This document shows, piece by piece, positions 17,578 to 54,599 of a stretch of DNA of 64,000 nt. The position numbers and the translations under genes are program-made. The notes beneath the pieces were generated by a model that saw nothing but the letters and a program-made list of their open reading frames with translations, ran no database searches and had not been told where the DNA came from. Within the stretch, counting starts at the first letter, position 1. Each line of letters begins with the position of its first letter. The stretch is taken from the NCBI RefSeq assembly GCF_009865405.1, contig NZ_WWJY01000454.1, positions 1-64,000 of the forward strand, given 5' to 3'. This DNA is from Streptomyces sp. SID3212. Lineage in GTDB: Bacteria; Actinomycetota; Actinomycetes; Streptomycetales; Streptomycetaceae.

Positions 17578-17622
17578 GGCAACAGATTGCCTTGACTGTG
17601 ACTCATGTGGCAACCTATTGCC
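17578..17622. promoter_or_regulatory. Divergent operator/promoter for PKS and P450 genes
   Basis: Two dyads GGCAA-CAGA-TTGCC (17578-17591) and GGCAA-CCTA-TTGCC (17609-17622) lie 31 bp apart centre to centre. The inner half-sites form TTGCC-N17-GGCAA (17587-17613). Rightward this gives TTGCCT-18-CAACCT for the P450; leftward it gives TTGCCA-18-CAATCT for the PKS. One symmetric element could therefore serve as -35 and -10 in both directions. Confidence 0.7.
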
Positions 17623-21580: not shown

Positions 21581-22471
21581 TCAGCCCGCCTCCCGGCGGC
21601 CCGTCGCCGCCCGGGCCGCGTCGAATTCCACGTACTGCCGGCTCAGCGTTTCGGCCAGGTCCGCCCAGCCCGCGTAGTCGCCGTACTCCAACGCACAGCG
21701 CTGGAAGCCCAGTCGGGGGTCGTCCACCGCCAGACGGCCGCTGTGGGCCGCCACATGGTCCAGGAACGCCCGCGACTCGTCGATGATCTTCGCGTTGTTG
21801 ATGTGCCACTCCCCGGAGGAGTACGCGGCGACCCGCTTGGCCAGCCGCTCGCCCGCCGAGGCGGTCCACTTGAAGTGGTGCACCTGTGCGTACACCCGCG
21901 CGGCCGGGGCGCCCCGGCCGGTCCAGCTGTTGTGCTGCCCGTACCCCAGCTCCATCCGGCCACGTGCCAGCGGCACCTTCGTCGGCCGGGCTCCCATGAG
22001 CCGCAGGGTCACCAGCCCGGCGAGGGGGTACTGCCGCCACAGCGGCGCCGAGCCGAACGGTCCGGGGTCGGGGAAGGAGCCGTCGGCGGCCACCCGGTCG
22101 AGGAACGCCCCTTCCACGTAGTCGAATCCGTGCCGCTCGCAGTGGGCGACCGTCTCCTTCAGGGAGTCCGGGTAGACCTGGAACTCGTCCAGGTCGGCCA
22201 CCACCCACCAGTCGTCGGGGTGTTCGGCCATCGTTTCCCGGATCAGCCGCGGGTTGAGATGTTCGTGCCACGGCCCGACGCTGATCCGGGTGAAGTCGTG
22301 CCCCGCGTCCCGGACGACCTCGACGGACGACGGGAGGGTGGGGTCCTCCCTGCTCTCCACATGGCGGATCACGTGGAACGCCTCGACGCCGAGCCCTTCG
22401 TAGTGGGCCAGCATGTGCGGCAGGAGCGAGGTGTCCCCGCCCACGACCGACACCAGGCGGACGACGGTCAC
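21581..22471 (-). CDS. Glycosyltransferase, GT2/GT92-like
   Basis: 296 residues. The N-terminus VRLVSVVGGDTSLLPHMLAHY and the metal-binding DxD in WWVVADLDEFQVYP are typical of the GT-A group with Glyco_tranf_2_4 or GT92-like domains. A later HHFKW and W/H-rich segment fits the acceptor side. It overlaps the GT8 gene by 4 bp (ATGA), so two sugars may be added in sequence. No membrane segment is visible. Confidence 0.78.
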   Translation of the reverse strand: MTVVRLVSVVGGDTSLLPHMLAHYEGLGVEAFHVIRHVESREDPTLPSSVEVVRDAGHDFTRISVGPWHEHLNPRLIRETMAEHPDDWWVVADLDEFQVYPDSLKETVAHCERHGFDYVEGAFLDRVAADGSFPDPGPFGSAPLWRQYPLAGLVTLRLMGARPTKVPLARGRMELGYGQHNSWTGRGAPAARVYAQVHHFKWTASAGERLAKRVAAYSSGEWHINNAKIIDESRAFLDHVAAHSGRLAVDDPRLGFQRCALEYGDYAGWADLAETLSRQYVEFDAARAATGRREAG

Positions 22472-23307
22472 GACGAACCGGTCAGGGCGAGCACGGAGGA
22501 GTACTCCTCGTACAGCCGGCGCAGCGCGTTGTCGGGGAAGACGTCCCCCCAGGGCTTGTCCCCGCCGATGAAGTGGATGATGCCCTCACGGCGCGTCAGG
22601 TAGTCGAGCCGGCCGCTGCCGAAACGCCCGTGGACCGGGTGCTCGATGAGCTTGTTCCACTTGTCGGGTACGGGCGTCCAGCGTTCCGCGTAAAGGTAGT
22701 TGAGGATGTCCTGGTCGAGCGTCGGGATGTCCTTCCCGTACGTCCGGTAGATGTCCAGGGACCGTTCCGTGGTGTTCTCGGCCCGCCACCGGTCCATGTC
22801 GATCAGCAGCACACCCGCGTTGAAGTAGCCGGGCGGCTTGGCGCCGGTCTGGCTCAGGCTCGCCCGGTCGCCCAGGGTCAGCACCCGGGCCGGCGCCACC
22901 TCGTTGATCACGGCGCCGATGGTGTTCCCCGCCAGGTCGTGCCGGTACAGCTCCGTCAGGTCGTCCAGGACCAGCGTGTCGACGTCGAGGTAGATGACCC
23001 GGCCGATGTCGCGGGGCACGACGTCGCCGATGTGCAGCCGGTGCAGCGTGGCGGCCGTCCAGTGCTTGCGCGGGGTGGCCATCTCCAGCCGGTCGGGGAC
23101 GGTGTAGAGGTCCACGTCCCCCACCCGGCCCAGGGCGTCGGCGAGGAACCGCCTGCCGTCGGCCCCGAGTCCCGAGTCGATGACGTGGAAGGCCGGGCGG
23201 CTGCTCGTGTCACGCAGGCCGGCCCCGATCGAGTGGGCCACCACCGCGGCGGCGTCGACATAGTTCTGGTCCACCGCGAACACCACGTGGAGATCCTGCT
23301 GTCCCAT
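22468..23307 (-). CDS. Glycosyltransferase family 8 (LgtC/glycogenin type)
   Basis: 279 residues. It starts VVFAVDQNYVDAAAVVAHSI, has the metal-binding DxD in VIYLDVDTLVLDD, FNAGVLLIDMDRWR, LDQDILN, and the C-terminal HFIGGDKPW. All are signature positions of retaining GT8 enzymes, which use UDP-Glc or UDP-Gal. GalU, encoded two genes away, makes UDP-glucose, so the donor may be supplied locally. First gene of a two-gene transferase unit with its own cluster-type promoter. Confidence 0.9.
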   Translation of the reverse strand: MGQQDLHVVFAVDQNYVDAAAVVAHSIGAGLRDTSSRPAFHVIDSGLGADGRRFLADALGRVGDVDLYTVPDRLEMATPRKHWTAATLHRLHIGDVVPRDIGRVIYLDVDTLVLDDLTELYRHDLAGNTIGAVINEVAPARVLTLGDRASLSQTGAKPPGYFNAGVLLIDMDRWRAENTTERSLDIYRTYGKDIPTLDQDILNYLYAERWTPVPDKWNKLIEHPVHGRFGSGRLDYLTRREGIIHFIGGDKPWGDVFPDNALRRLYEEYSSVLALTGSS

Positions 23308-23343: not shown

Positions 23344-23372
23344 ACTCTACGAGCCGCCTCATGTGCTGGCAA
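23344..23372 (-). promoter_or_regulatory. Promoter of the glycosyltransferase pair with cluster half-site
   Basis: On the minus strand, TTGCCA (complement of 23367-23372) and TAGAGT (complement of 23344-23349) are separated by 17 bp, a good streptomycete promoter. The TTGCCA is one arm of the imperfect dyad GGCAA-TGTT-CTGCC (23368-23381). Confidence 0.6.
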
Positions 23373-23422
23373 TGTTCTGCCTCAACTTGGCACAATGAGA
23401 TGACCCCAACGGCTCGATACCG

Positions 23423-23455
23423 TTGCCACGTTGGGCAATGGCTGGCAAACTTGCC
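23423..23455 (+). promoter_or_regulatory. Operator/promoter of the TauD-type dioxygenase gene
   Basis: TTGCC-ACGTTG-GGCAA (23423-23438) followed by GGCAA-AC-TTGCC (23444-23455). TTGCCA at 23423 and CAAACT at about 23446 are 17 bp apart and can serve as -35/-10. Same half-sites as the other cluster promoters. Confidence 0.55.
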
Positions 23456-23505: not shown

Positions 23506-24402
23506 GTGACCATGACCCAACTGCCCTTGACCGACGTGGGGATCGTCCCGCTGGCCGGCGGTATCGGCGCCGAACTCACCGGTGTGGACTCGGCAGGACC
23601 GCTCGCCGACGAGACCGTCGCGCAGGTGCGCCGCGCCCTCCTCGCCCACAAGGTGGTGTTCCTGCGCGGCCAGCGGCTGGACTACGACAGCCAGGCGGCG
23701 TTCGCCCGCCGGTTCGGCGACCTGACGCTGGGTCACCCCGTCTACGCCGCGCCCCAGGACCGCCCCGCCGTACGGGAGATCGACTCCCGCGCGGGCACCC
23801 GCGCCAACCACTGGCACACCGACCTCACCTTCGTCGAACGGCCGCCGGCCCTCGCCTTCCTCCACAACAAGGTCATCCCGCCGGTGGGCGGCGACACGAT
23901 GTGGGCGAACACCGTCGCCGCGTACGAGAGCCTGCCCGAGCCGCTCCGCGCACTGGCCGACCGCCTGCGGATCGTGCACAGCAACGACTCCGACTACACC
24001 GACGAGACGGTCGCGGCCCGCGCGGAGTACATCTCCACGCTGTACGAGACCGAGCACCCCGCCGTCCACGTGCACCCGGAGACCGGCGAGCGGTCGCTGC
24101 TCCTCGGGGGCTTCGCGCGCCGCGCGGTGGGCTTCGGTCCGCAGGCCTCGCGCGACCTGATGCGGATCCTCCAGGAGTACGTGGTCCGGCCCGAGCACAC
24201 CGTCCGGTGGACCTGGCGCGTCGGTGACCTGGCCATCTGGGACAACCGCGCGACCCAGCACTACGCGATCCACGACTACGGCACCGAGGCCCGCCGCGCC
24301 GAGCGCTGCACGGTCGTGGGCTCCGTCCCGGTCGGGACCGACGGCCGCCCCAGTGTGACCGTGAGCGGGGACACCTCCACGTACAGCGCCGGTGTCGCCT
24401 GA
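23506..24402 (+). CDS. TauD/TfdA family 2-oxoglutarate and Fe(II)-dependent dioxygenase
   Basis: 298 residues from the GTG at 23506 (AGAAAGG upstream); ATG at 23512 is possible. The HxD motif is HWHTDLTF, the distal His is in QHYAIHDYG and the 2-oxoglutarate-binding Arg is in RRAERCTVV. These enzymes hydroxylate or otherwise oxidise unactivated carbons. It probably hydroxylates an amino acid building block or the assembled scaffold. It is followed by galU in the same direction. Confidence 0.92.
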   Translation: MTMTQLPLTDVGIVPLAGGIGAELTGVDSAGPLADETVAQVRRALLAHKVVFLRGQRLDYDSQAAFARRFGDLTLGHPVYAAPQDRPAVREIDSRAGTRANHWHTDLTFVERPPALAFLHNKVIPPVGGDTMWANTVAAYESLPEPLRALADRLRIVHSNDSDYTDETVAARAEYISTLYETEHPAVHVHPETGERSLLLGGFARRAVGFGPQASRDLMRILQEYVVRPEHTVRWTWRVGDLAIWDNRATQHYAIHDYGTEARRAERCTVVGSVPVGTDGRPSVTVSGDTSTYSAGVA

Positions 24403-27567: not shown

Positions 27568-28308
27568 TTACCAGGCCACGGGGCCCTGGTCGTCGAAGAA
27601 TCCGCCCGTCGGCCCGTCGTCGGGCAGGGTGGCCAGGTCCACGATGACGCGCGCCCCCTCGTCGGCGGAGCGCGGCGCTCGGAAGTCGTTCATGCCCGTC
27701 GCGGTGTAGCCGGGCGACGCCGAGTTGATCTTGAGGTGGGCCAGGCCGGGGTCGTGGGCGAAGGCTCTCGCGTACTGGAGGGTCAGCATGTTGAGCGCGG
27801 CCTTGGAGCTGGTGTAGGCGAAGCGCCGGTCCGCGTTGCCGGGCAGCTCGGCCCCGTCGCCCGTGAGGGTCAGCGAGGCCGTGGTGCTGGACACGTTGAC
27901 GATCCGGGGCGCGGAGGAGCGGCGTAACAGGGGCAGCGAGGCGTGGGTGACGGTCACGACGCCGAAGACGTTCACGTCGAACATGTCACGCATCCGGTCC
28001 GGGGTCGTCTCCACCGCCGTCGAACCGACGAACAGGCCCGCGTTGTTGACCAGGACGTCGAGCCGTCCGTGTTCGTCCCGTACGCGCTCCGCCGCCGCCT
28101 CGACCCCGGCGGGATCCGTGACGTCGAGCTGAAGGGCTGTCACGGGCAGTCCCTCCCAGGCCAGTTCGCGTGCGGCCTCCTCGCCCCGGCCGAGACTGCG
28201 GCTGCCGAGCAGGACCGTCACGCCCCGCCGGGCCAGCGCGCGTGCCGTCGCCTTGCCGATCCCCTTGTTCGCCCCCGTCACCAGGGCCACCCGACCCGGA
28301 CTCCTCAT
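27568..28308 (-). CDS. Short-chain dehydrogenase/reductase
   Basis: 246 residues from the ATG at 28308 (AAAGGACC upstream). NAD(P)-binding TGANKGIG, NNAG in VNNAGLFVG, and catalytic YxxxK in YTSSK with the expected Ser in VNVSSTT. A rare TTA codon sits at 27925-27927 (codon 128). It probably oxidises or reduces a sugar or scaffold carbonyl in the pathway. It shares a divergent operator with an MFS gene. Confidence 0.9.
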   Translation of the reverse strand: MRSPGRVALVTGANKGIGKATARALARRGVTVLLGSRSLGRGEEAARELAWEGLPVTALQLDVTDPAGVEAAAERVRDEHGRLDVLVNNAGLFVGSTAVETTPDRMRDMFDVNVFGVVTVTHASLPLLRRSSAPRIVNVSSTTASLTLTGDGAELPGNADRRFAYTSSKAALNMLTLQYARAFAHDPGLAHLKINSASPGYTATGMNDFRAPRSADEGARVIVDLATLPDDGPTGGFFDDQGPVAW

Positions 28309-28335: not shown

Positions 28336-28362
28336 TTGCCAGAGATGGCAACTATAGGGCAA
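28336..28362. promoter_or_regulatory. Symmetric divergent operator/promoter between SDR and MFS genes
   Basis: TTGCC (28336-28340)-N17-GGCAA (28358-28362), with an inner TTGCC-N6-GGCAA (28336-28351). Rightward: TTGCCA-18-CAAGGT. Leftward: TTGCCC-18-CAATGT. Both readings satisfy a -35/-10 layout. This is the clearest two-way example after the PKS/P450 site. Confidence 0.65.
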
Positions 28363-28436
28363 GGTGTTGTCATCCTGACAGGCTTTCAAGTGCCTGAAGC
28401 CACCCGTGCTTCGGCTGACAGTGAGGTGGGCCCGCG

Positions 28437-29702
28437 ATGACCGTGCCTGAGGACGTGGTACCCGACCGGGCCACTTCGGTGACCGAGGCGGACCGGGTGG
28501 GGCCGGTGGATCCCGGCGGGATCGCGCCGGGCAAGGGGGCGGCTCTGCCGGGCCGCGCCCGCTGGGCGGCGCCCGCGCCGTTCCTGATCGCCGGGCTGCT
28601 CTTCGCCAACTACTACCTGCGGATGCCGTCGTTGAAGACGGAGTACGCGCTCTCCAACGGCCAGCTCGGCCTCTTCCTCCTCCTGCCGGTCGTCACCGGC
28701 CTGGTCACGCTCCAGACGGCCGGGGCCCTGGTCGCGCGCTTCGGCAGCGGCCCGATCGCGCGGACGACCATGGTCGCGCTGCCCCTCTCGCTGGCCGGGA
28801 TCGCGCTCGCCGGCGACCGGGTCCAGTTCGGCGCGGCCCTGCTGGTGTTCGGCGCGGTCAACGGCCTGGTGGACGTCTCCATGAACGCCCACGCCATCGC
28901 CGTCGAACGGGCCCTGGAGCGCCCCATCATGAACAGCTGTCACGCCGCCTGGAGCATCGGGACGATGGTCGGCGCCGTCCTCGGCGGCATCGCCGTGAAG
29001 ACCGGACTCTCCTTCACCCAGCACTTCCTGCTGGTCAGCGTGGTGCTGGCGGTCATCGGGGCGGTGGCGGGCCGTTCGATGCTGCCGGGCTCCGCCGACC
29101 AGGGCAAGAAGGAGGCGGACGGCAAGCGCGAACGCGTGGGCTGGCGGGACGGCTGGACACCCCGCGTGGTGGTGCTCGGTCTCACCGGGACCGTCGTGCT
29201 GGTGTCCGAGTCGGCGGTGGGCGACTGGAGCGGGATCTTCCTGCGCGACGAACTCGGCGCGACCCTCGCCACGGCGTCACTCGCGTACATCGCGTTCAGC
29301 TTCTGCCAGACCGGCGGCCGGCTGGTCGGGGACCGGCTGAACCAGAAGTACGGTCCCTCCGTCCTGGTCCGGTGGGGCGGCGCCATCGCGGTGGCCGGTC
29401 TCACGGTGGTGGTGTTCAGCCCCACGCCCGCGGTCGCGGTGGTGGGGTTCGGGCTGCACGGCGCGGGGCTGTCGGTGATCGTGCCGATCATCTTCAGCGC
29501 GGTGGGCCACGGCGCCGCCGACGGCGAGACCGGCAGCGCGACCGCCGCGCTGGCGAAGGTCAACACCCTGACGTACGGCGGGTTCCTCGCCGGTCCCATG
29601 CTGGTCGGCCTGTTCGCGGACGGGTTCGGGCTGACCATGACACTCGCCGGGCTGCTGGTGGTGCTGGCCGTCACGGTGAGTACGGGACTGCGGCGCGTGT
29701 AG
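28437..29702 (+). CDS. MFS transporter
   Basis: 421 residues, ATG with GAGGTGGG upstream. About 12 transmembrane segments after a 40-residue hydrophilic N-terminus. Blocks such as NAHAIAVERALERPIMNSCHA and GDWSGIFLRDELG place it with YbjJ/fucose-permease-like MFS proteins. It shares this family with the MFS at 38439, so the cluster carries two related exporters. Likely exports the product; direction and substrate are not proven. Confidence 0.82.
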   Translation: MTVPEDVVPDRATSVTEADRVGPVDPGGIAPGKGAALPGRARWAAPAPFLIAGLLFANYYLRMPSLKTEYALSNGQLGLFLLLPVVTGLVTLQTAGALVARFGSGPIARTTMVALPLSLAGIALAGDRVQFGAALLVFGAVNGLVDVSMNAHAIAVERALERPIMNSCHAAWSIGTMVGAVLGGIAVKTGLSFTQHFLLVSVVLAVIGAVAGRSMLPGSADQGKKEADGKRERVGWRDGWTPRVVVLGLTGTVVLVSESAVGDWSGIFLRDELGATLATASLAYIAFSFCQTGGRLVGDRLNQKYGPSVLVRWGGAIAVAGLTVVVFSPTPAVAVVGFGLHGAGLSVIVPIIFSAVGHGAADGETGSATAALAKVNTLTYGGFLAGPMLVGLFADGFGLTMTLAGLLVVLAVTVSTGLRRV

Positions 29703-29723: not shown

Positions 29724-29745
29724 TTGCCAAAAGTGTGCCTCAGGC
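29724..29745 (+). promoter_or_regulatory. Operator half-sites upstream of A-PCP gene
   Basis: TTGCC-AAAAGT-GTGCC followed by TCAGGCA. Nearly the same word (TGCCAAAGTGTGACTCAGG) occurs at 45853-45871 upstream of the XRE regulator, which suggests a common binding site. No clear -10 was found. Confidence 0.45.
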
Positions 29746-29831: not shown

Positions 29832-31892
29832 ATGTCGGATTCACCTGGAACGGACCTGCTGCCCAGCCGTACGGAGACCCGGGCGAGGGACCAGGAGGTT
29901 TTGATGGCGCTCGGACGCGGCGCCCCCCTGCCCCTGTCCGGGCGCACCCCGGTGCACGAGCTCGTCGCGCACTACGCCCGTACGGAACCGGCCCGTACCG
30001 CCGTGCACAGCGGCGACACCGCCCTCAGCTACCGCGCCCTGGACGCGTGGGCCGGCCGGATCGCGGCCCGACTCGCCGCGCACGGCGTCGGCCTGGGCTC
30101 CCGGGTCGGCGTGGTCGCCGAGCCGTCGACGGCCATGATCGCCTCCGTACTGGGCATCCTGCGGTCCGGGGCGGCGTACGTCCCGGTGGATCCGTCCCAC
30201 CCCGACCGGCGTGTCGCCGACATCCTGGCCGACGCCCGGGTGGGCGCCGTCGTCGTCACCTCGGAGGCCGGCGCGCGCCTGGCGGGGCTCGGGCTGCCGC
30301 TCGTGGACGCGGAGGGTGAGGCTGCCCGGCCCGGGGCCCACACGGTGGACCCGCCCAAGAACCGGGTCGGCCCGCAGGACCCGGCGTATCTCATCTACAC
30401 CTCCGGGAGCACGGGCGAGCCCAAGGGCGTCCTGGTCGAGCACGGCCAGCTGGCGGCCTCGACCCTCGCCCGCCGTACGGTCTACCCGGGCGAGCCCGTC
30501 TTCCTCCTGGTCTCGCCCCTGGCCTTCGACTCCTCGGTGGCCGGCCTGTGGGGCACCCTCACGGCGGGCGGCCGTCTGGTGGTGGCCACGGCGGACGAGG
30601 TCCGTGACCCCGAGCGGCTCGTGGAACTGGTCGAACGGCACCAGGTGACACAGATGTTGTGCGTCCCCTCGCTCTACCGGGTGGTGCTCGACGCCGCCGA
30701 ACGGCTGGGCGCGCGACGGCTCCGCTCGCTCCGTACCGTGATCGTGGCGGGCGAGCCGCTCCCCGCCGAGCTGGTCACGCGCCATTTCGCGGCACACGGC
30801 GACCCGGTGTCGCTCGTCAACGAGTACGGCCCCACCGAGGCGACCGTGTGGGCCAGTTACCACCGCTTCGACAGCGCGGGCCCGGTGTCCGTCGGACGCC
30901 CGGTGCCGGGGGCCCGGCTCTACGTACTGGACGAGCTGATGCGGCCGGTGCCGCGAGGCGCCGAGGGGGAGTTGTACGTCGGCGGCGCAGGCGTGGCACG
31001 CGGCTACTTCGGCCGTCCCGACACCACCGCCCGCGCCTTCGTCGGCGATCCGTTCGCGGGTGCGCCGGGCGCGCGCATGTACCGTACGGGCGACTTCGTC
31101 CGCTGGAACGACGCGGGGACGCTCGACTTCGTCGGCCGCCGCGACCATCAGGTGAAGATCCGTGGCCAGCGCGTCGAACTCGGCTTTGTCGAGGCCCAGT
31201 TGTGCGCGCTCCCCGGAGTGCGCGAGGCGGTGGTCGTACCGGTCGGCGGGGACACGGGCCTGGCCGCGTTCGTGCTCGCGCCGTCGGGTCCCGAGGGCGC
31301 GGCGCTGCGGGAAGAGCTGGCGCTGAGGCTGCCCGCCGTGATGGTCCCGGCCCGGGTCACGGTGCTGGACGACCTTCCCCGTACGGTCAACGGCAAGGCG
31401 GACCGTACGGCACTGGCGCTGCGGGCGGCGGAAGGCACCCGCACCGCTGCCGCCGACCGACGTCACACCGACACGGACGCGGCCGAGCACACCGACACGG
31501 ACACCGGCCAGCACACCGGCGCCGGCACCGCGCCGCACCCGGATACGGACACCGCCCAGCACACCGACACCGATCTGGCCGCCCGCGTCTCCGCCGCCTG
31601 GGCCGAGGTGCTCCAGAGCACCTCCGTCCCCACGGACGTCAACTTCTTCGACATGGGCGGCCACTCCCTCGCCATGTTCCAGCTCCAGGAGGCCCTGGAA
31701 CGCCACACCGGAAAGCGGCCCTCGGTCGTCGCGCTCTTCCGGCACACCACCGTCCTGGCCCAGGTCGCGCTGATCCGCGACAGCGGTACGGAGTCGGACG
31801 CGGTCCTCACGGCCTCCCGGCAGGCCACCGCCCGGCGCGCCCGCGTCCTGCGGGCCCAGCGGCAGCGTACGGAACAGGAGACAGTCAAGTGA
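29832..31892 (+). CDS. Stand-alone NRPS adenylation-PCP didomain protein
   Basis: 686 residues from the ATG at 29832 (GAGGAG upstream; the frame is open earlier). Adenylation domain (about 25-535): A3 LIYTSGSTGEPKG, A5 NEYGPTEATV, A7 MYRTGDFVRW, A8 RRDHQVKIRGQRVELG, A10 Lys in TVNGKADR. The substrate-pocket residues I read by eye are D,S,A,L,I,A,E,V,W,K; I do not assign an amino acid. The linker (about 540-575) is a low-complexity H(T/P)DTD repeat. The PCP (about 580-655) has the pantetheine Ser in FDMGGHSLAM. No C or TE domain. It loads one amino acid for the PKS or A-PCP-C protein. Coupled (4-bp overlap) to the thioesterase. Confidence 0.93.
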   Translation: MSDSPGTDLLPSRTETRARDQEVLMALGRGAPLPLSGRTPVHELVAHYARTEPARTAVHSGDTALSYRALDAWAGRIAARLAAHGVGLGSRVGVVAEPSTAMIASVLGILRSGAAYVPVDPSHPDRRVADILADARVGAVVVTSEAGARLAGLGLPLVDAEGEAARPGAHTVDPPKNRVGPQDPAYLIYTSGSTGEPKGVLVEHGQLAASTLARRTVYPGEPVFLLVSPLAFDSSVAGLWGTLTAGGRLVVATADEVRDPERLVELVERHQVTQMLCVPSLYRVVLDAAERLGARRLRSLRTVIVAGEPLPAELVTRHFAAHGDPVSLVNEYGPTEATVWASYHRFDSAGPVSVGRPVPGARLYVLDELMRPVPRGAEGELYVGGAGVARGYFGRPDTTARAFVGDPFAGAPGARMYRTGDFVRWNDAGTLDFVGRRDHQVKIRGQRVELGFVEAQLCALPGVREAVVVPVGGDTGLAAFVLAPSGPEGAALREELALRLPAVMVPARVTVLDDLPRTVNGKADRTALALRAAEGTRTAAADRRHTDTDAAEHTDTDTGQHTGAGTAPHPDTDTAQHTDTDLAARVSAAWAEVLQSTSVPTDVNFFDMGGHSLAMFQLQEALERHTGKRPSVVALFRHTTVLAQVALIRDSGTESDAVLTASRQATARRARVLRAQRQRTEQETVK

Positions 31893-45498: not shown

Positions 45499-45741
45499 CT
45501 ACGGCCAGTCGATGTCGTCCGTGCCGGGGGCGCCGGCCGGGCTGACCACGGGGTTCGGCCCCGGCCAGTCGATGCTGCCTGTCGTGTCGAAGGCGGAGGA
45601 AACCGTGAGGTTGTTCCCCGGCCAGTCGATGTCAGCCACCGCGGCGGCGAGCGGAAGTGCCAGGAGAGCGGTGGCGGCCGGCAGTGTCAGTAAAAACGCC
45701 GCGACGGCCGAGGTGGACGAGGTGCCGGTGAACTTGCGCAT
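45499..45741 (-). CDS. Secreted signal-peptide precursor with three IDWP repeats (candidate quorum-sensing propeptide)
   Basis: 80 residues from the ATG at 45741 (GGAG 5 bases upstream). MRKFTG is the charged N-region, a hydrophobic core runs to about residue 35, and a signal-peptidase site follows LAAAVA. The mature 44-residue part contains DIDWPG directly after the cleavage site, SIDWPG in the middle and DIDWP as the very last five residues, separated by Pro/Gly/Ser/Asn-rich linkers. The three copies are encoded by near-identical DNA words (GGCCAGTCGATG on the plus strand). A rare TTA codon is codon 17 (45691-45693). The gene is divergent from an XRE-TPR regulator and begins a minus-strand gene row. 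This matches propeptides of RRNPP systems, where a short C-terminal fragment is re-imported to bind a TPR receptor. A cell-wall or inhibitor peptide is an alternative. Confidence 0.75.
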   Translation of the reverse strand: MRKFTGTSSTSAVAAFLLTLPAATALLALPLAAAVADIDWPGNNLTVSSAFDTTGSIDWPGPNPVVSPAGAPGTDDIDWP

Positions 45742-45806
45742 GGGAACTCCAGTGGATCCGTTGACGGTTCGGGCGGCGCTGCGACGCCGGGTGCTGACGA
45801 GGAATA

Positions 45807-45871
45807 AAGCTAGTAACTGGAAAAGCTGTTTGGCAAGTACTTGCCTAGGATCTGCCAAAGTGTGACTCAGG
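45807..45871. promoter_or_regulatory. Divergent operator/promoter between precursor and regulator genes
   Basis: The perfect dyad GGCAAGTACTTGCC (45832-45845) is followed by TGCCAAAGTGTGACTCAGG (45853-45871). For the precursor (minus strand), TTGCCA (complement of 45831-45836) and TAGCTT (complement of 45807-45812) are 18 bp apart: a good -35/-10 pair with the dyad over the -35. It predicts a 5' leader of about 55-60 bases. A further TTGCC lies at 45896-45900. The same half-sites recur across the cluster. Confidence 0.7.
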
Positions 45872-46062
45872 GTGATCCCGGCCCGGGGAGATCAATTGCC
45901 AACAGGTCCGGAACTTTGTCAGCACGCAGTGTGGCCGCTACAGTGACCGTCAGGCATAATGGGGACTCTTCTGAGGTGTCTGAGACGCTGAGGCAGGAGG
46001 TCGACCGTCGGCCGAAAACTGGATCCGTGTGTATCTGGATCCCCGTGAATAGTGGGACCGCC

Positions 46063-47301
46063 ATGATGGAACAGCCCTATTTCGGTCGTCGCCTCAAAGA
46101 GCTGAGGAGGGCGCGCCGGCTCTCCCAGGCCGCTCTGGCGGGTGAGGAAATCTCCACCGGGTACCTGTCACGACTGGAGTCCGGTGCCCGACAACCCACC
46201 GAGCGGGTTGTCACATACCTTGTCAAGAAACTTGCCGTGGAGCGGTCGGCGTTCGACGTGCCGCCGAGCGGTGGTTCGCTGGCCCAGGCCCTCTCCCTCG
46301 CGACCTCCTCCGACAGCGACGAGACGGTCGAGCGCCTGATCATCGCGCTGGACCAGGCGGAGGACGAGGATCTCCTGCTGCGCTGGCAGGCCCTGTGGAT
46401 CATCTCCCGGCACTGGCAGCGCCGCGGCGAACACGCCGAGGAGCGGGAAGCCCTGGAGGAACTGGTCAGGATCGCCGACGAACTGGCGCTGCCCGAGTTG
46501 CAGTGCAGGGCCCAGTCCCAGCTCGCCCGGTTGCTGAGGGCGACGGGCGAGGTGACCCGCGCCATCGACATGGCCACCCACGCCTATCAGTTGGCCACGC
46601 AGGGCAAACTGTCCGTCTCCGACGTCGGGACGGCGTTGCAGACGCTCGTCGCGGCCGAGGCCGAGGCGGGCCGGCTGCCCGACGCCAGGGCCCACGTGGA
46701 CGAACTGGTCGCCCTGGTCGAGAACGGCGGCTCGGAGGTCATGCGGACCGAGGCGCTCTGGTCGGCGGCCACGGTGCGTTTCCGGCAGGGCGACCACGAG
46801 CGGGCCCGGGAGTTCCTCGAACGCGCGATGAACGAGCTGGACAGCCGGGTCGACCTCACTCTCTGGGTACGGCTCCGGCTGGCCACCGCCTCGCTCTGCC
46901 TCCAGACCGAGCCGCCGCTCACCACGCTCGGGCGCGCGTACCTCCAGGAGGTGGAGGGCGCGCTCGCCCTCGTCGGTACGTCGGTGATGCGGCAGGAGCT
47001 GCTGATGCTCCAGGCGTATCTCGCCTTCCACGAGGGCCGGTACGAGGACGCCCGCGCCGCGCACGACGAACTCAACTGCGACGACATGCGCATGACCTAC
47101 CGTGACCGGATCAGGCTCAGCATCCTCGACAGCCAGCTGCTGCTTCTGGAGGGCGACGAGGAGCGCGGCCTGGGGCAGCTCAGGGAGCTGGGCGAGCAGG
47201 CGAGGCAGGCGTCGAACATCGACCTCGCGGCGGACATCTGGCGCATCCTCGCGGGCGCGCTGGAGACGTCCCGCCGGCGGAGGTCGGCGGCCGAGGGCTG
47301 A
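46063..47301 (+). CDS. XRE-family HTH regulator with TPR-like C-terminal region (candidate peptide receptor)
   Basis: 412 residues. The frame is open from 45841, but upstream residues are encoded by operator DNA, so ATG 46063 (or 46066) is preferred; its ribosome-binding site is weak. HTH_3 at about 6-62: FGRRLKELRRARRLSQAAL, then ISTGYLSRLESGARQPT. From about 70 to 405 the protein is all helical with TPR-like helix pairs (ALEELVRIADELALPELQCR, ARAHVDELVALVE, ERAREFLERAM, AAHDELNC). Size and layout equal PlcR/NprR/Rgg-type RRNPP receptors, whose TPR groove binds a re-imported peptide. Unlike SARPs it has no winged helix or ATPase domain. Divergent from the precursor gene and next to the dyad, it probably controls itself and the cluster. 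Confidence 0.85.
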   Translation: MMEQPYFGRRLKELRRARRLSQAALAGEEISTGYLSRLESGARQPTERVVTYLVKKLAVERSAFDVPPSGGSLAQALSLATSSDSDETVERLIIALDQAEDEDLLLRWQALWIISRHWQRRGEHAEEREALEELVRIADELALPELQCRAQSQLARLLRATGEVTRAIDMATHAYQLATQGKLSVSDVGTALQTLVAAEAEAGRLPDARAHVDELVALVENGGSEVMRTEALWSAATVRFRQGDHERAREFLERAMNELDSRVDLTLWVRLRLATASLCLQTEPPLTTLGRAYLQEVEGALALVGTSVMRQELLMLQAYLAFHEGRYEDARAAHDELNCDDMRMTYRDRIRLSILDSQLLLLEGDEERGLGQLRELGEQARQASNIDLAADIWRILAGALETSRRRRSAAEG

Positions 47302-49006: not shown

Positions 49007-52000
49007 TCACACCACGCCCGGCGACAGGCTCCGCAGCCGGTCCGTGAAGCGCTTGGCGATCTCCTGCGCGGTGGTCTCCGCGACCGCCTCCGGGCGGAAG
49101 GAGACCTCCACCCGCAGCCCGCCGCGCTCGTCGGGCCACAGTTCGGTGTGCAGTTCGAGCGGGAGGTCCAGATACGGCTGACGCAGGAACTCGGTCCGTA
49201 CGCCGGCCAGTTCGAGCCGGGGGACCGCGTTGTCCTGGAGCGCGAACAGCGCCTGGTAGAGCGGCGGCCGGCCGGTGCGGGGCCGGCCCGTCAGGCTGAG
49301 GATCTCCCCGAGGGAGACGTCCTGCGCGGCGACGGCACGCGCGGTGATACGAGAGGTCTCGCGCGCGGCGTCCGTACCACCGCCCAGGGCGGCACCACGC
49401 AACCGCAGGCACAGCATGATGATGTGGCAGCCGACCACACCGTCGAGCCGCGCGCCGTCGCGCCGCGCCACGGGCACGCCGACGGCGAAGTCGCGCCGGC
49501 CGGTCACCTCCGCCAGGGCCGCGGCCCAGTTCGACAACAGCACCGCGAAGCGGGTGACGCCCGCCTCCCCGGCCAGGTCGTCCACGCCGGCCAGTACGGC
49601 GGACGACAGCGGCATGTCGACGCGGCCAGGCACTCCGGTCGCCGGCTCCGGAGGCGCGGCCGGCCACCGGAGATCCGGTACGCCGGTCAACTCGCCCCGT
49701 ACGTACTCCTCATGGGCGGCCGACGCGGTCTGCCGCCGGTAGCGCGCGCGTTCCTGGTGGACCTCCGCCAGCGAGGGAGGCGGGGGCTCGGCCGTCCGCC
49801 CGCCGCCTTTCGCCGCGTCGTACGCCGCCGCGAGGTCGCGCGCGAGGACGGACTCCGACCAGCCGTCGAAGGCGATGTGGTGCACCACGACCCCGAACAC
49901 CGAGGACCGCCCCCCGGCCACCGGGACCAGCACGGTGCGCCACAACACGCCCTGCTCCGGGTCCAGTTCACCGGAGAGCGTGGCACGCACCGCCGAGACG
50001 GCGCTGTCGACGGTGTGCGCGGGCGGCAGGATCTCGACGGGGGGCGGGGGAGCGTCCACGAGCAGCGCGTACGGCGCGGGGTCCAGGACGTACGCGGCAC
50101 TCAGGGACTCGTGGCGCCGGTGGGTCTCGGCGACCGCCGTCTCCAGGGCCGCCGTGTCCAGGTCCCCCTCCACGAGCCAGGCCAGCACGCAGTGTGCCGT
50201 CAGGTCCGAGGGGGCGAGCAACTGCCGTGTCAGATAGACGGTTTGCAGGGAGGTGAGAGGGGTGTCGCCGCTCTCCGGCGGTGCCTCCGGCAGGTGGTCG
50301 GGCGGCGGGGTCGTGCGGAGCCAGTGGGCGAGCGCGGCGACGGTCGGCCGCTCGTAGAGCGTGGCGACCGGGACGGGGCGGCGGAGCCGCGCGGCCAGCC
50401 GGGCACAGACCCGGCCGGCGCCGAGCGAGGTGCCGCCCAGCGCGACGAAGGGTGTGCCGAGCGGGACATCCGCCCGCCCGAGCACGGCGGCGAACGTCTC
50501 GGCGACCGCGCGTACGGTCGGATCGGCGAGATCGGCGGGATCGGCGGGATCGGCGGGATCGGCGAAGTCAGCGGCATCAGTGAGATCGGTGAAGTCGGCG
50601 GTACCGGCCGCGCGGCCCGTGTCCTCCGTACGTACGATCCCCTCGCCGCCCTCGCCCGCGTCCGGCACCAGCCGCAGCAGTGCCCGTTCGTCCAGCTTCC
50701 CCCGGGCCGTCAGCGGAAAGGCGTCCACCGTGACCACCCGGGACGGCCGTTGGTACGAGACAAGAGCCCCGGCCAAGGCGGCCGTCGCGCCCTCCAGCGG
50801 ATCCCCCGGCTCGACGGGCACACAGAACGCCACCAACTCCTGCGCCGTTCCCGAGGCGTCCTTCCTGGCCAGGACGCGACACGCCCGTACGGCCGGCAGG
50901 CACCGCTCCACCTGGCGCTCGACCTCGGCGGGCTCCACCCGGTGACCCCGGATCTTCACCTGCCGGTCGGCCCGCCCCCGGAAGTGCAGCAGCCCGTCCG
51001 CGCCCCACACCCCCAGGTCCCCCGTCCGGTAGACGCGCAGGGCCTCGCCGTCGATCGTCACCCGGGTGAACGCGGCCTCGGTGAGGGCCGGATCGCCGAG
51101 GTAGCGCAGCGCGAGGCCTTCCCCCGCGACACAGATCTCGCCCGTCTCGCCCACGGCGCACACCCGGGTGCCGTCCAGCACATGGACCCCCGTGCCGGGG
51201 ACCGGGCGGCCCAGGGGAATTCCGCCGGGCAGGTCGCAGTCGGCCGGTGTGATGCGGTGGGTCGTGGCGAACACCGTGCTCTCGACCGGCCCGTAGCCGT
51301 TGAGCAGCACGATCCCCGGGTGCCTCAGCAGGAAGCGCCTGACGTGCGCGGTGGAGAGCCGCTCGCCGCCGATCATGACCTGGCGCACGCCCTCGAAGGC
51401 CGCCGGGTCCTCGTCGGTGATCATGTTGAAGAGGCTGCTGGTGAGCCAGACCGTGTCCGTCCCGTGGACCGACACCCCGGCCCGCAGGGCGGCGGGGGAG
51501 AGGTACGGGTCCTCGACGACCACCGATCGGCCCCCGTTGAGCAGGGCGGACCACAGCTCCAGCGAGAACGCGTCCCACGGCGGCGGGGCCGCGAGGGGCG
51601 TCACCGTACTGGCGCCGAAGTGCGCGAAGGTGTCCGGCGCGAAGAGGCGGGCCGTCGCGCGGTGGGGCGTCACCACTCCCTTGGGCCGGCCGGTCGTCCC
51701 CGACGTGAAGAAGACACACGCGGGGTCGGTGCCCGCGACCTCGGCGGCCCGGAAACCCGGCGGCGCCTCCACCGGCCGGGTGGGTGGTGTCCACACCGGC
51801 AGGCCGTGACCCTCGGGGGTCCCGGCGGCGGACCGGGCCACCACGAGGGGCGCCGCCAGATCGGCCATCGCCTCGCGCAGACGGCGCGCGGGCCACTCCG
51901 GGTCCAGTGGGGCGTAGGCCGCGCCCGCCTTGAGGACCGCGAGCAGCGCGACCACCAACTCCGGCCCCCTGGGCAGCAGAACGGGTACGAACGCGCCCGG

Positions 52001-52198
52001 CGCGACCCCGGCGGCCACCAGCTCGGCCGCCCAGGCGTCGGCGGTACGGTCCAACTCCCCGTACGTCATGCTCCGGCGGTCTCCCGCCAGGGCGACGGCG
52101 TCCGGGCGGGCCCGCGCCGTCCGTGCGAACGTCTCGTGCAGGCCTTCGTCGGAGGTGGCACCGGGGCGTCCCGCGGTCCATTTCGGGTCTGGTTGCAC
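49007..52198 (-). CDS. NRPS protein A-PCP-C
   Basis: 1063 residues from the GTG at 52198, which has GGGGAG 9 bases upstream. The frame is open to a GTG at 52279, but that lies inside the proposed promoter. Adenylation domain (about 20-550): FFTSGTTGRPKG, NGYGPVESTV, VYRTGDLGVW, RADRQVKIRGHRVEPAEV, Lys in TARGKLDER. Pocket residues read by eye are D,A,L,L,M,G,G,V,F,K; substrate not assigned. A tripeptide-repeat linker (ADP/ADF) follows. PCP (about 590-665) Ser in ALGGTSLGAG. C domain (about 680-1060): HHIAFDGWS carries the catalytic His. The C-terminal position of C is unusual. It could condense this PCP's aminoacyl group with an acceptor supplied by another protein, or form the releasing amide bond. 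Confidence 0.92.
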   Translation of the reverse strand: MQPDPKWTAGRPGATSDEGLHETFARTARARPDAVALAGDRRSMTYGELDRTADAWAAELVAAGVAPGAFVPVLLPRGPELVVALLAVLKAGAAYAPLDPEWPARRLREAMADLAAPLVVARSAAGTPEGHGLPVWTPPTRPVEAPPGFRAAEVAGTDPACVFFTSGTTGRPKGVVTPHRATARLFAPDTFAHFGASTVTPLAAPPPWDAFSLELWSALLNGGRSVVVEDPYLSPAALRAGVSVHGTDTVWLTSSLFNMITDEDPAAFEGVRQVMIGGERLSTAHVRRFLLRHPGIVLLNGYGPVESTVFATTHRITPADCDLPGGIPLGRPVPGTGVHVLDGTRVCAVGETGEICVAGEGLALRYLGDPALTEAAFTRVTIDGEALRVYRTGDLGVWGADGLLHFRGRADRQVKIRGHRVEPAEVERQVERCLPAVRACRVLARKDASGTAQELVAFCVPVEPGDPLEGATAALAGALVSYQRPSRVVTVDAFPLTARGKLDERALLRLVPDAGEGGEGIVRTEDTGRAAGTADFTDLTDAADFADPADPADPADLADPTVRAVAETFAAVLGRADVPLGTPFVALGGTSLGAGRVCARLAARLRRPVPVATLYERPTVAALAHWLRTTPPPDHLPEAPPESGDTPLTSLQTVYLTRQLLAPSDLTAHCVLAWLVEGDLDTAALETAVAETHRRHESLSAAYVLDPAPYALLVDAPPPPVEILPPAHTVDSAVSAVRATLSGELDPEQGVLWRTVLVPVAGGRSSVFGVVVHHIAFDGWSESVLARDLAAAYDAAKGGGRTAEPPPPSLAEVHQERARYRRQTASAAHEEYVRGELTGVPDLRWPAAPPEPATGVPGRVDMPLSSAVLAGVDDLAGEAGVTRFAVLLSNWAAALAEVTGRRDFAVGVPVARRDGARLDGVVGCHIIMLCLRLRGAALGGGTDAARETSRITARAVAAQDVSLGEILSLTGRPRTGRPPLYQALFALQDNAVPRLELAGVRTEFLRQPYLDLPLELHTELWPDERGGLRVEVSFRPEAVAETTAQEIAKRFTDRLRSLSPGVV
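50521..50601. repeat. In-frame 9-bp repeats encoding the A-PCP linker
   Basis: Nine consecutive imperfect 9-mers related to GATCGGCGG, translated on the minus strand as repeats of (A/T)D(P/F/L)A. They form the linker between adenylation and carrier domains. Confidence 0.85.
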
Positions 52199-52272: not shown

Positions 52273-52299
52273 TTGTCACAATGTTGCCTAGCTTGGCAA
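52273..52299. promoter_or_regulatory. Divergent operator/promoter between NRPS and kinase genes
   Basis: TTGCCTAGCTTGGCAA (52284-52299) is a near-perfect palindrome. Rightward TTGTCA-18-CAATGT; leftward TTGCCA-18-CAACCT, the same -10 as the P450 promoter. The 17-base word TTGCCTAGCTTGGCAAT is identical to that at 53336. Confidence 0.7.
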
Positions 52300-52374: not shown

Positions 52375-53292
52375 GTGTCATCGACCAGTACGGACGAAGT
52401 GCCCGTCGACGCGGCTCTCGTGCGCCGCCTGCTCGCGGCCCAGTTCCCGCAGTGGGCCGACCTGCCCCTGGCGACCATCCCCGTGCCCGGCATGGACAAC
52501 GCGACGTTCCGGCTGGGCGACGGCATGTCCGTACGGCTGCCGCGCTTCCCGCGCTGGGCGGGACAGGTGGAGCGCGAGCACGAGTGGCTCCCGCGCATCG
52601 CGCCGCACCTCCCGCTGCCCGTCTCCGAGCCGCTGGCCATGGGCAAACCGGCCGAGGGCTATCCCTTCTCCTGGTCGGTCTACCGGTGGCTGCCCGGGGA
52701 GAACGCGTCGGGCGCCGCCCTCGTGGACCCGGCAGGCGCCGCCACCGAGCTGGCCGGCTTCGTCTCCGCCCTCCAGGCGGTCGACGCCACGGGCGCCCCG
52801 GGACCGCAGTGGAGCAACGCGTTCCGTGGTGTGCCGATGGGGGACGAGCGGGACTCCCTGGCCTCCGAGGCGCGTGTCCTGCCCAAGATCGAGGCCATGA
52901 AGGGCCTGGTCGACACCGACGCGCTCGCCGCTGTGTGGCAGGCGGCGCTGACGGCTCCCGCCTGGGCCGGGCCGCCGGTCTGGATCCACGGCGACCTCGG
53001 GACCGGGAACATCCTGCTGGCCGACGGCCGGCTGAACGCGGTCATCGACTTCGGGACGCTGGCCGCCGGCGATCCGGCCGTGGACCTGCTGCCCGCCTGG
53101 AACTTCCTGCCCGACGAGGTGCGCGGTGTCTACCGCGAGGCGCTCGGCGTGGACGACGCGACCTGGGCGCGCGGGCGGGGCTGGGCGCTGGCCGGCTCAC
53201 TGCCCGTCCCCGACGACCCGTACTACCAGGACCCGGTACGGGCCGCCTCGGCGCTGCACGTCCTGGACCAACTGATCGCGGACCTCGGGTAG
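52375..53292 (+). CDS. Aminoglycoside phosphotransferase (APH) family kinase
   Basis: 305 residues from the GTG at 52375 (GAGGAG upstream; the frame is open earlier). Kinase-like fold: catalytic loop WIHGDLGTGNILL and metal site VIDFGTLAAGDP. The N-terminal lobe shows VPGMDNATFRLGDG. APH proteins phosphorylate hydroxyl groups of aminoglycosides, macrolides or sugars. In this cluster it may inactivate the product inside the cell (self-resistance) or phosphorylate a sugar precursor. Confidence 0.88.
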   Translation: MSSTSTDEVPVDAALVRRLLAAQFPQWADLPLATIPVPGMDNATFRLGDGMSVRLPRFPRWAGQVEREHEWLPRIAPHLPLPVSEPLAMGKPAEGYPFSWSVYRWLPGENASGAALVDPAGAATELAGFVSALQAVDATGAPGPQWSNAFRGVPMGDERDSLASEARVLPKIEAMKGLVDTDALAAVWQAALTAPAWAGPPVWIHGDLGTGNILLADGRLNAVIDFGTLAAGDPAVDLLPAWNFLPDEVRGVYREALGVDDATWARGRGWALAGSLPVPDDPYYQDPVRAASALHVLDQLIADLG

Positions 53293-53324: not shown

Positions 53325-53361
53325 TTGCCTCACGCTTGCCTAGCTTGGCAATATTGTGCCA
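53325..53361 (+). promoter_or_regulatory. Operator/promoter of the GT-MFS unit
   Basis: TTGCC (53325-53329)-N17-GGCAA (53347-53351), overlapping TTGCCTAGCTTGGCAA (53336-53351) and GGCAA-TATT-GTGCC (53347-53360). TTGCCT-18-CAATAT gives a -35/-10 pair. It is the rightmost site found. Confidence 0.7.
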
Positions 53362-53414: not shown

Positions 53415-54599
53415 ATGGGTCGCCCCAAGTTCAGTGTCGTGATCCCTTACAAACAACGCCTGGACAACATCAGGCTGGTGTTCGCCGCGCTGGCGGAACA
53501 GACCATGGACCGCTCCGAGTTCCAGGTCGTCGTCGGCGCGCTGGAGTACTCGCGGGAGTACGTCGCCACCTGCCGGGAGTTCATGGACCGGCTCGACATC
53601 GTCACGGTCATGTCGGACGAGAAGTGGAACCTGAGCCGCGCCAGGAACCTGGCGATCAAGCAGGCCACGGGGCAGGTGTACGTGTTCCTCGACGCGGACA
53701 TGGTGCTGCCCCCCAACTGCCTGCGCAACTTGTACGACCGTCACTACGCGCACGGTCAGAGCATCTGCGTCGTGGGCCAGATGATCGGCTACGACGAGGT
53801 GGTCGACAGCCAGGTGGACGCGGTCGAGGCGCTGCCGTTCAGCCATTACCGCGAGGCGCTCGCCGTACTCGACGCGGGAACGACGGATGTCCTGGACGAA
53901 CGCTGGTCGCCCGCCTACGAGTCGGCGATCGCCCGCTTCCCCTGGGTGTTCGCCCGGGGCGGCTTCCTCGCCCTGTCCGCCGATACGCTCCACCGCCACG
54001 GGCTCCTCTTCGACGAGGGCTTCGACGGATGGGGGCCCGAGGACCAGGAATGGGGATTCCGGGTCGCCTCGACCGGGACCCCGATCGTGCTGCGCGAGGA
54101 CGTCGTGGGACTGCACCTGCCCCACGCGCGGGACCTCTCCGCCAACGGCGCCACGGCCCACGTCAACAACCGGTACTACCTCGGCAAGTGGCCCCGTCTC
54201 GACCTCGAACTGGCCCTCGTCTTCGGCTGGTTGGAGACCGACCGGATCTACCCGGAGGTGGAGCGCGAACTCGCCGCCGCCGCCGGGGGCGAAGGGCGCG
54301 CGCTCGGAGTCGTACGGGGCACGATCAACGGCAGGACCGGCCTGGTGGTCGGTGCCGTGACGGAGGGCGGGTCGCTCCGGCCCTCCCCGGAGACCGACGC
54401 GCTGTTCGACCCGCGCTCGCCGCTCGACGTGGTGCCGCTGGCCGGATTCGCCCTGCCCTACGGCGACAAGAGCGTCGAGGAGTGCCGCGTCCTGCCGGCG
54501 GTCACCACATTGAGCGAGCGGTACCGGGAGGCCGTCCTCCGCGAGGCCGAGCGCGTCGCGCACAAGGTCCTCACCCCGGCGGGCGGCGAACGGGGCTGA
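53415..54599 (+). CDS. Glycosyltransferase, GT2/GT27-like
   Basis: 394 residues from the ATG at 53415 (GAGGAG at 53404). SVVIPYKQRLDNIRLVF, WNLSRARNLAIKQATG, the DxD in VFLDADMVLPPN, and the second motif GFDGWGPEDQEWGFR, as in galactosyltransferase-C domains of GT27-type enzymes. A C-terminal beta-rich extension (about 300-394) is of unknown role. The fifth glycosyltransferase in the cluster. It forms a unit with the following MFS. Confidence 0.87.
   Translation: MGRPKFSVVIPYKQRLDNIRLVFAALAEQTMDRSEFQVVVGALEYSREYVATCREFMDRLDIVTVMSDEKWNLSRARNLAIKQATGQVYVFLDADMVLPPNCLRNLYDRHYAHGQSICVVGQMIGYDEVVDSQVDAVEALPFSHYREALAVLDAGTTDVLDERWSPAYESAIARFPWVFARGGFLALSADTLHRHGLLFDEGFDGWGPEDQEWGFRVASTGTPIVLREDVVGLHLPHARDLSANGATAHVNNRYYLGKWPRLDLELALVFGWLETDRIYPEVERELAAAAGGEGRALGVVRGTINGRTGLVVGAVTEGGSLRPSPETDALFDPRSPLDVVPLAGFALPYGDKSVEECRVLPAVTTLSERYREAVLREAERVAHKVLTPAGGERG

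Follow-up and report, generated by a model that had tools for sequence, protein, structure and literature searches.

The DNA analysed here comprises 64,000 nucleotides of Streptomyces sp. SID3212 (contig NZ_WWJY01000454.1, positions 1 to 64,000; hereafter the window; in a draft genome of 8.0 Mb it forms contig C786). Within a non-ribosomal peptide synthetase and polyketide synthase (NRPS/PKS) cluster it carries a small gene for a putative peptide precursor and, divergent from it, a gene for a helix-turn-helix/tetratricopeptide repeat (HTH-TPR) regulator, here called the receptor, with a palindrome between the two. Precursor, receptor and palindrome form a conserved module, which is tied here to the biosynthetic cluster. 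Its elements are:

45499-45741, minus strand: precursor gene, 80 codons (80 aa), ATG at 45741, end of the stop codon at 45499
45619-45630, minus strand: core copy 1, IDWP preceded by D, aa 38-41, directly behind the supposed cleavage site
45562-45573, minus strand: core copy 2, IDWP preceded by S, aa 57-60, internal, with GPNP next
45502-45513, minus strand: core copy 3, IDWP preceded by D, aa 77-80, the exact C-terminus
45832-45845: perfect 14-bp palindrome GGCAAGTACTTGCC, putative operator, between precursor and receptor
46063-47301, plus strand: receptor (regulator) gene, 412 codons, divergent from the precursor, with HTH_31 and a MalT-like TPR superhelix

An initial annotation of this DNA had described an 80-residue precursor with three copies of IDWP, one of them right at the C-terminus, a divergent 412-residue XRE-HTH protein with a long TPR-like helical region, a perfect dyad between both genes and a surrounding actinomycete biosynthetic cluster. 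The coordinates and content of the precursor proved correct, the receptor bears out its description in the HTH_31 and TPR_MalT matches and in its structural model, the dyad was found at 45832-45845, and NRPS/PKS genes are present, with palindromes across the cluster. Of the signal peptide also claimed, what stands is a basic N-terminus and a hydrophobic stretch up to AAAVA (leader hydropathy 2.26, a heuristic value only), and AAAVA followed by the D ahead of core copy 1 resembles a signal-peptidase site as judged by eye and by the hydropathy heuristic only. No other open reading frame (ORF) of 25 codons or more anywhere in the 64 kb window ends in [ILVM][DE]WP, and in the 8 Mb of its own genome the pattern NTN-GAN-TGG-CCN-stop occurs at three places only, the other two being on contigs C966 and C1008 and not precursor-like on inspection. 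The precursor matched no Pfam family and two NCBIfam families weakly (best E 0.013, far under their cut-offs). As a homology query it found matches in 2 of 101 genomes, its own included, because leader and linkers diverge, and the family search was therefore run with the receptor as query.

The pairing of receptor and precursor recurs well beyond this genome. A receptor search of 392 Streptomyces genomes gave matches at E 1e-30 or better in 65 of them; two fragments (G001) and one copy (G199) among the 77 receptor places in the genus were left out, and 72 stretches were taken for upstream inspection, giving 74 receptors with the window included (numbers with G, C and L are our handles for genomes, contigs and loci). 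For 38 of these 74 receptors, the 2 kb upstream include an ORF of 25 or more codons with [ILVM][DE]WP as its exact C-terminus, against 0.2 such ORFs expected from dinucleotide shuffles, and within 2 kb downstream there is none (0/74). Other precursors end in the core plus a short tail, for instance DIGWP followed by 2-7 residues. The set was extended to 114 receptors by 40 stretches, namely 24 of the 25 places in other genera and 16 from the same genus, and an accepted core ORF was found within 1.7 kb of 73 of them, two doubtful matches (L063, L167) having reduced the count from 75. An apparent duplicate (L011, of L055) was dropped from the counts; a partial receptor (L113) is included in the 74 and the 114 and kept out of the alignment and the tree, and a too distant one (L145) is kept out of the 114 and retained among the 115 upstream regions considered below. 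In the other genera of the family the core ORF occurs at 15 of 24 places, in six genera. The co-occurrence that the initial annotation had suggested looking for, receptor homologues with adjacent and often repeated precursors, was thus found (38/74; 73/114), as was the conservation of the core, which is kept as I/V/L-D/E/G-W-P.

The 73 cores are of the types IDWP (37), IEWP (13), IGWP (9), VEWP (6), LDWP (3), LEWP (3) and VDWP (2), with D or E as the preceding residue in 46. The core is exactly C-terminal in 57 precursors and followed by a tail behind the last WP in 16; each precursor holds one to five copies, and 22 of the 73 hold two to five. Repeated cores, which had been called unusual, are not so, since several pheromone copies per propeptide have been described in Bacillota/Firmicutes, in the available portions of two papers (PMC11343458, PMC9765709). 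The precursor gene is divergent from the receptor in 48 of the 73 systems, as in the window, and codirectional upstream of it in 25. With start codons chosen by script to favour a hydrophobic leader, an N-terminal hydrophobic stretch (hydropathy at least 1.9) is found in 51 of the 73, including all 25 codirectional ones. An example is the plasmid NZ_CP108163.1 of Streptomyces sp. NBC_00158, which has related cluster genes and a three-copy precursor, WP_331719352.1, annotated as 'hypothetical protein'; two RefSeq hypothetical ORFs near the receptors of two other plasmids (H5, H15) were translated and rejected as precursors. The receptor profile is present in 60 of 297 genomes and 10 of 17 genera of a family sample, and in 41 of 197 genomes of an order sample, two of them in another family. 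In a phylum sample 5 of 396 genomes match (E 1e-40), one of these matches being weak, from outside the family and lacking a core ORF in 1.5 kb of upstream sequence. The receptor is present in 36 plasmid records, and a search of phage records gave no match.

Some variation within the family deserves mention. The precursors of one receptor clade (L064, L065, L067, L070, L071, L075, L174) have no clear hydrophobic leader, and five of them (L064, L065, L070, L071, L174) share a basic N-terminus like MKxxVPARRAAR. A second clade (L080, L081, L082, L084, L085, L088, L183) has mostly weak-leadered precursors with a C-terminal EIEWP and an RPGxxRR-like stretch, perhaps resembling a twin-arginine (Tat) signal. 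Two receptors lie some 8-23 kb apart in G244 (L043, L047), G229 (L045, L052) and G071 (L050, L113), one with an adjacent precursor and the other without. The genome of SID3212 itself encodes a second HTH-TPR receptor, about 59% identical, at C1178:1535-2752 (L051, L224).

As a check on how rare the core motif is, 101 genomes of the genus were scanned for codons giving [IV][DE]WP directly before TAA or TGA. There were 35 matches, of which 30 were read and 5 judged by position only. Eight matches fall in the 2 kb upstream of a receptor, and two more are farther off on receptor contigs. One of these, in G039, lies about 3 kb beyond the receptor and encodes a precursor with three copies and ALIDWP at its end (L195/L226, G039:C28); the other, in G099, encodes a two-copy precursor about 29 kb from a receptor that has none adjacent. 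In G132 a precursor with three copies of DIGWP(A/V)APKT is found about 2 kb upstream of the receptor. Such cases mean that the distance limits used undercount the pairs. The G039 receptor already has a DDDIGWP ORF upstream, so that two candidate signals stand beside one receptor. Seven of the 30 matches read (L199, L205, L207, L208, L212, L217, L221) come from an unrelated membrane protein, itself conserved and some 120 aa long, whose C-terminus is VDWP or IDWP, and were rejected.

On a tree of 113 receptors, with changes counted on the 73 labelled rows, the second residue of the core changes 10 times against a mean of 26.8 in shuffled labellings (smallest 22), the first residue 5 times against 13.5, and gene orientation twice against 21.0. 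Core type and receptor are co-inherited, which by itself is no proof of specificity.

Above cut-off, the receptor matches the Pfam families HTH_31 (N-terminal) and TPR_MalT (residues 95-375). Its AlphaFold2 model, built on a 73-row alignment, has a mean predicted local distance difference test score (pLDDT) of 94.7 and predicts 21 helices, arranged as an HTH and a TPR superhelix. Rap, NprR, PlcR, ComR and AimR rank high among its fold matches (Foldseek, VIA-align); for this predicted structure, Rap 8rsu is matched with Z 25.2 and a root-mean-square deviation (rmsd) of 5.5 over 313 residues, NprR 5dbk with Z 23.5 and 3.8 over 300, and AimR 5zw6 with Z 20.5 and 5.2 over 289. The A helices of TPR repeats line the concave face. 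When the A and B helices of the receptor are assigned by alternation, 16 conserved charged or Trp residues fall on A helices and 1 on B helices (Fisher p = 0.0002); nine of the 16 are Arg and three Trp. The conserved Arg and Trp residues include R107, W108, R149, R156, W233, R270, R272, R347 and R351, and W233, R270 and R272 are present in 73 of 73 alignment rows. Groove conservation in the model is consistent with peptide binding in the TPR half, and an Arg/Trp-rich groove would suit a ligand bearing a C-terminal carboxyl along with acidic and aromatic groups. RRNPP receptors have a conserved groove Asn that pins the peptide backbone; among the positions of the present receptor with entropy below 1.0 there is no Asn, apart from one gap-ridden column.

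A second line of evidence connects the receptor to DNA. The 7-mer TTGGCAA/TTGCCAA occurs in 63 of 115 receptor upstream regions (350 bp), where 3.4 would be expected, and in 1 of 115 coding control stretches, and it is part of a palindrome, GGCAA-N4-TTGCC, of which the same regions contain 40 instances at spacing 4. This form, and not the exact 14-mer of the window, is what the loci share; the exact 14-mer, tried as a shared motif, gave 3 occurrences within 3 mismatches, and 18 of 100 shuffles gave as many. In the window TTGGCAA occurs 9 times against 1.17 expected, a number reached by 0 of 100 shuffles. A matrix built from 39 sites, all outside the window, scores ten window sites above 7, all of them in the 11.7% of the window that lies between predicted genes, and all inside the cluster, in eight intergenic regions from 12.7 to 53.4 kb; the eleventh site (score 5.8) is within a gene. 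Window genes were predicted by a simple codon-position script and their families assigned by Pfam-type matches. Besides the site at 45832-45845, the relevant features are:

12755-54599: biosynthetic cluster (NRPS/PKS) spanned by the putative operators
10759-12729, minus strand: Peptidase_S9 gene (prolyl oligopeptidase family, PF00326), cluster edge
12755-12768: putative operator between 10759-12729(-) and 12867-14120(+), matrix score 18.3
17578-17591: putative operator, exact palindrome, between the KS gene 14548-17514(-) and the P450 gene 17666-18850(+)
17609-17622: second exact palindrome, same KS gene/P450 intergenic region
23368-23381: putative operator between 22468-23307(-) and the TauD gene 23512-24402(+), score 13.7
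23434-23447: weaker putative operator, 22468-23307(-)/TauD intergenic region, score 7.6
28358-28371: putative operator between 27568-28290(-) and the major facilitator superfamily (MFS) gene 28437-29702(+), score 12.4
29726-29739: weaker putative operator ahead of the NRPS gene 29904-31892(+), score 7.6, with TTGGCAA there
52275-52288: putative operator between the NRPS gene 49007-52069(-) and the APH-like gene 52399-53292(+), score 12.1, with a further TTGGCAA at 52293
53347-53360: putative operator ahead of the glycosyltransferase family 2 (GT2) gene 53415-54599(+), score 24.9

The cluster encodes NRPS modules of the A-PCP-C and A-PCP type, a thioesterase, a KS-AT-ACP protein and a P450, together with PhyH and TauD oxygenases, aminotransferases, GT2 glycosyltransferases, an ATP-grasp L-amino acid ligase and transporters. 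In the own genome as a whole the exact palindrome has six occurrences, of which three are in the cluster, two before the second receptor (C1178, at 1331 and 1410) and one at another place. Of the 33 distinct TGGCAA-N4-TTGCC sites in ten chosen genomes with the receptor, 30 are no more than 30 kb from a receptor; ten genomes without a receptor match contain two such sites altogether. The farther precursors of G039, G099 and G132 (L226, L225, L233), which the core motif had brought to light, also have the palindrome upstream. The shared palindrome thus supports a link, at the level of sequence, between the receptor and the intergenic regions of the cluster, and control of the biosynthetic cluster is well supported in the window. 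For all members of the family such control is plausible. Eight loci share at least two window genes at 45% identity or more, and the remaining loci sit elsewhere. At 59 loci the two closest predicted genes (117 proteins) encode MFS transporters, NRPS domains, ATP-grasp proteins, MbtH and regulators, and among these 117 proteins there is no constant partner, no Pfam family being found in more than 9. On two named plasmids (H5, H15) the receptor lies amid NRPS genes of other kinds, and on a third (H3) there is no NRPS gene in the stretch examined.

The palindrome of the window also appears to overlap a promoter, for which the candidate elements are:

45831-45836, minus strand: candidate -35 of the precursor (TTGCCA), one half of the putative operator
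45807-45812, minus strand: candidate -10 of the precursor (TAGCTT), 18 nt from the -35-like half-site
45916-45944, plus strand: sigma-70-like candidate promoter toward the receptor (TTGTCA-17-TACAGT), from a consensus scan only

In many family members the palindrome half-site looks like a promoter -35. A spacing of 17 or 18 nt between the TTGCCN half-site and TANNNT occurs at 18 of 40 family sites in the direction of the receptor and at 21 of 40 in the other direction; 20 other spacings (8-29 nt) account for only 3 cases in all. The loci are related and these events not independent. Repression relieved by the peptide would fit this overlap, and it seems somewhat more likely than activation because, in many family members, promoters of near-ideal form (TTGCCN, 17-18 nt, TANNNT) have their -35 inside the palindrome.

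The conserved pairing and core, the shared palindrome and its occurrence across the cluster, the overlap with promoters and the predicted TPR fold were all computed; export, cleavage, import, peptide and DNA binding, regulation with its sign, and density dependence are inferred. In our opinion the module is quite probably a peptide-pheromone/TPR-receptor switch for the biosynthetic cluster that works like the RRNPP systems. The product of the small gene would be exported by means of its Sec-type leader and cut behind the signal peptide and probably also after Pro, yielding short peptides that end in I-D-W-P. The Peptidase_S9 protein could, speculatively, make the cut after Pro; the palindrome-like site at 12755 is just ahead of its start, and the NBC_00158 cluster (L188) also has a gene annotated as prolyl oligopeptidase family. 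The accumulated peptide would re-enter the cells, probably by an oligopeptide importer; the own genome has 16 SBP_bac_5 matches, three seemingly pieces of one gene, which shows the existence of binding proteins only. Inside the cell the peptide would bind in the groove on the concave side of the receptor's TPR half. The HTH half of the receptor would bind GGCAA-N4-TTGCC between precursor and receptor and in the intergenic regions of the cluster, and peptide binding would change how both the cluster and the signal are expressed.

Several results weigh against this proposal. The receptor model matches MalT domain III and eukaryotic, unrelated TPR proteins with equally high scores, and since many TPR proteins match, the fold alone is not discriminating. 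No receptor columns in the tree set convincingly follow D versus E in the core. There is no accepted core ORF within 1.7 kb of 41 of the 114 receptors (none in 39, a doubtful one at L063 and L167); among these 41 the stretch was shortened in L051 and L078 only, and L059 and L073 had a precursor at a greater distance. On the 13 kb contig of the own genome's second receptor no precursor was found. A clear hydrophobic leader is missing in 22 of the 73 precursors even with start codons chosen in its favour. The candidate promoter of the receptor at 45916-45944 is away from the palindrome and has no matrix site above 7, and TANNNT at 16-18 nt is seen at just two of the ten window sites, 45832 and 23368. 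As TTGCCN resembles a -35, plain promoters could explain part of the half-site enrichment. Finally, a control pattern with the halves in reversed order is equally frequent in the own genome (6 and 6 versus 6 and 6) and gives 25 versus 42 raw palindrome matches in the ten receptor genomes and 12 versus 3 in the ten non-receptor genomes; the control pattern is not rare, and the argument accordingly rests on the clustering of the sites and not on their number.

Among the other explanations, the closest keeps the same system with the opposite sign, and so overlaps with the proposal: the peptide-bound receptor would activate promoters that have the palindrome over the -35. The centre of the site is near -35, a position used by some activators, and PlcR, ComR and many Rgg proteins are peptide-dependent activators, which we count for this alternative, and most other window sites have no TANNNT at a fixed spacing. 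The near-ideal -35/-10 spacing and hexamers at many palindromes nevertheless fit repression better, an argument from promoter form only, and activation is in our view a possible but rather unlikely sign. If instead the small protein acted inside the producing cell as an anti-repressor or co-regulator and were never secreted, the 22 precursors without a clear leader would be explained, as would the shortness of some (18-27 aa by the chosen starts: L053, L066, L068, L075, L186). The hydrophobic stretch in 51 of 73, all 25 codirectional ones among them, speaks against it, even if the starts were chosen to favour a leader, and linker-separated repeats of the core are best understood if they are cut apart; we think an intracellular role improbable.

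The near-identical multi-core layout of some precursors (five copies in L165, three DIGWP(A/V)APKT in L233) and their location in or near biosynthetic genes would also suit a ribosomally synthesised and post-translationally modified peptide (RiPP), whose modified cores become the natural product, the HTH-TPR protein being merely its regulator. However, the two nearest genes of the 59 loci (117 proteins, at most 9 per Pfam family) include no common modifying enzyme, and the core travels with the receptor instead; we think a RiPP very improbable. Hardly credible is a ribosome-arrest leader, in which stalling at Trp-Pro-stop controls the downstream gene. The conservation of a C-terminal WP-stop and the codirectional position of the ORF upstream of the receptor in 25 of 73 systems would agree with it, but in 48 of 73, the window included, the ORF is divergent and so no leader of the receptor, 22 precursors are multi-copy and 16 have a tail behind the last WP.

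Beyond the switch in this cluster, we lean, if only slightly, towards the view that these loci represent an undescribed and widespread Streptomycete peptide language, apart from the butyrolactones, in which precursors with 1-5 copies of [I/V/L]-[D/E/G]-Trp-Pro, an almost universal signal, and a dedicated HTH-TPR family acting on GGCAA-N4-TTGCC switch natural product clusters. In a library of PubMed Central (PMC) papers, which includes few subscription papers and no preprints, we found no recognisable description of such a Streptomyces pair and no paper with both IDWP and Streptomyces. If the view is true, the near-invariance of the core suggests a signal that may be active between species, and silent clusters might be woken by synthetic tetra- to hexapeptides. 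The family provides a specific candidate for each of ligand, receptor, palindrome and target cluster in an antibiotic-producing group, and makes it testable whether actinomycetes sense linear peptides intracellularly; a simple synthetic trigger for silent clusters is suggested, and receptor and site can now be found by sequence.

How the module relates to known systems may be judged on three comparisons. Gamma-butyrolactone receptors (ArpA/ScbR) are TetR-type proteins that act as an autoregulated switch over antibiotic clusters by a diffusible signal. The system proposed here would likewise be an autoregulated switch with a diffusible signal, but there the signals are small molecules made by enzymes, whereas here we have a ribosomal peptide and an HTH_31-TPR protein; with these Pfam families and no TetR-type fold, identity with a gamma-butyrolactone receptor was rejected. 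To MalT-type regulators the receptor is similar in its TPR_MalT region (residues 95-375) and in the match of its model to MalT domain III (Z 25.2, rmsd 5.1, 341 residues), and differs from them in that Pfam matched no LuxR-type C-terminal HTH or ATPase domain, its HTH being N-terminal. As regards published work, RRNPP_detector, in the accessible part of its description, was applied to Firmicutes and viruses, with actinobacterial signals given as typically small molecules (PMC10075063), and an evolutionary study of RRNPPA systems covers Firmicutes, with no mention of Streptomyces in its main text (PMC9765709). Butyrolactones are the Streptomyces signals given in the available sections of a 2026 review, which likewise presents signalling in actinobacteria as typically based on small molecules (PMC13220807), and cyclic or modified peptides are mentioned as signals of Actinobacteria in those of another (PMC4748050).

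The RRNPP type that the initial annotation assigned to the pair stands as regards the way it would work, by its pairing, HTH-TPR receptor and propeptide, and not as membership by descent, the sequence match being limited to the HTH end. In a profile search of PDB sequences, chains of ComR and PlcR match profile positions 3-67 only, and chains named 'Transcriptional regulator', some of which we take to be Rgg, match positions 1-106 at most. By analogy, the pair appears to work like RRNPP systems, and it may or may not descend from them. The working rule for RRNPP systems, as given in the available part of its source, is an HTH and TPR receptor of 250-500 aa with a propeptide of 10-100 aa (PMC10075063). 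Like the RRNPP/RRNPPA systems (PlcR-PapR, NprR-NprX, Rap-Phr, Rgg-SHP, ComR-ComS, AimR-AimP), the Streptomyces module has an HTH-TPR receptor, here of 412 aa, with a matching predicted fold, and an adjacent short propeptide with a C-terminal core and, here, a candidate export leader, of 80 aa and divergent; multi-copy propeptides occur in both, as far as the available text of two papers shows (PMC9765709, PMC11343458). In contrast to those systems, the pair is found in Streptomycetaceae, with the receptor also in two genomes of a second family of the order, and the sequence match of the receptor to RRNPP structures is confined to the HTH end. Its conserved groove residues are mostly Arg, Trp and Glu, the core with its conserved Trp-Pro is nearly invariant though the receptors are just 30-40% identical, and the putative binding sites span a natural product cluster.

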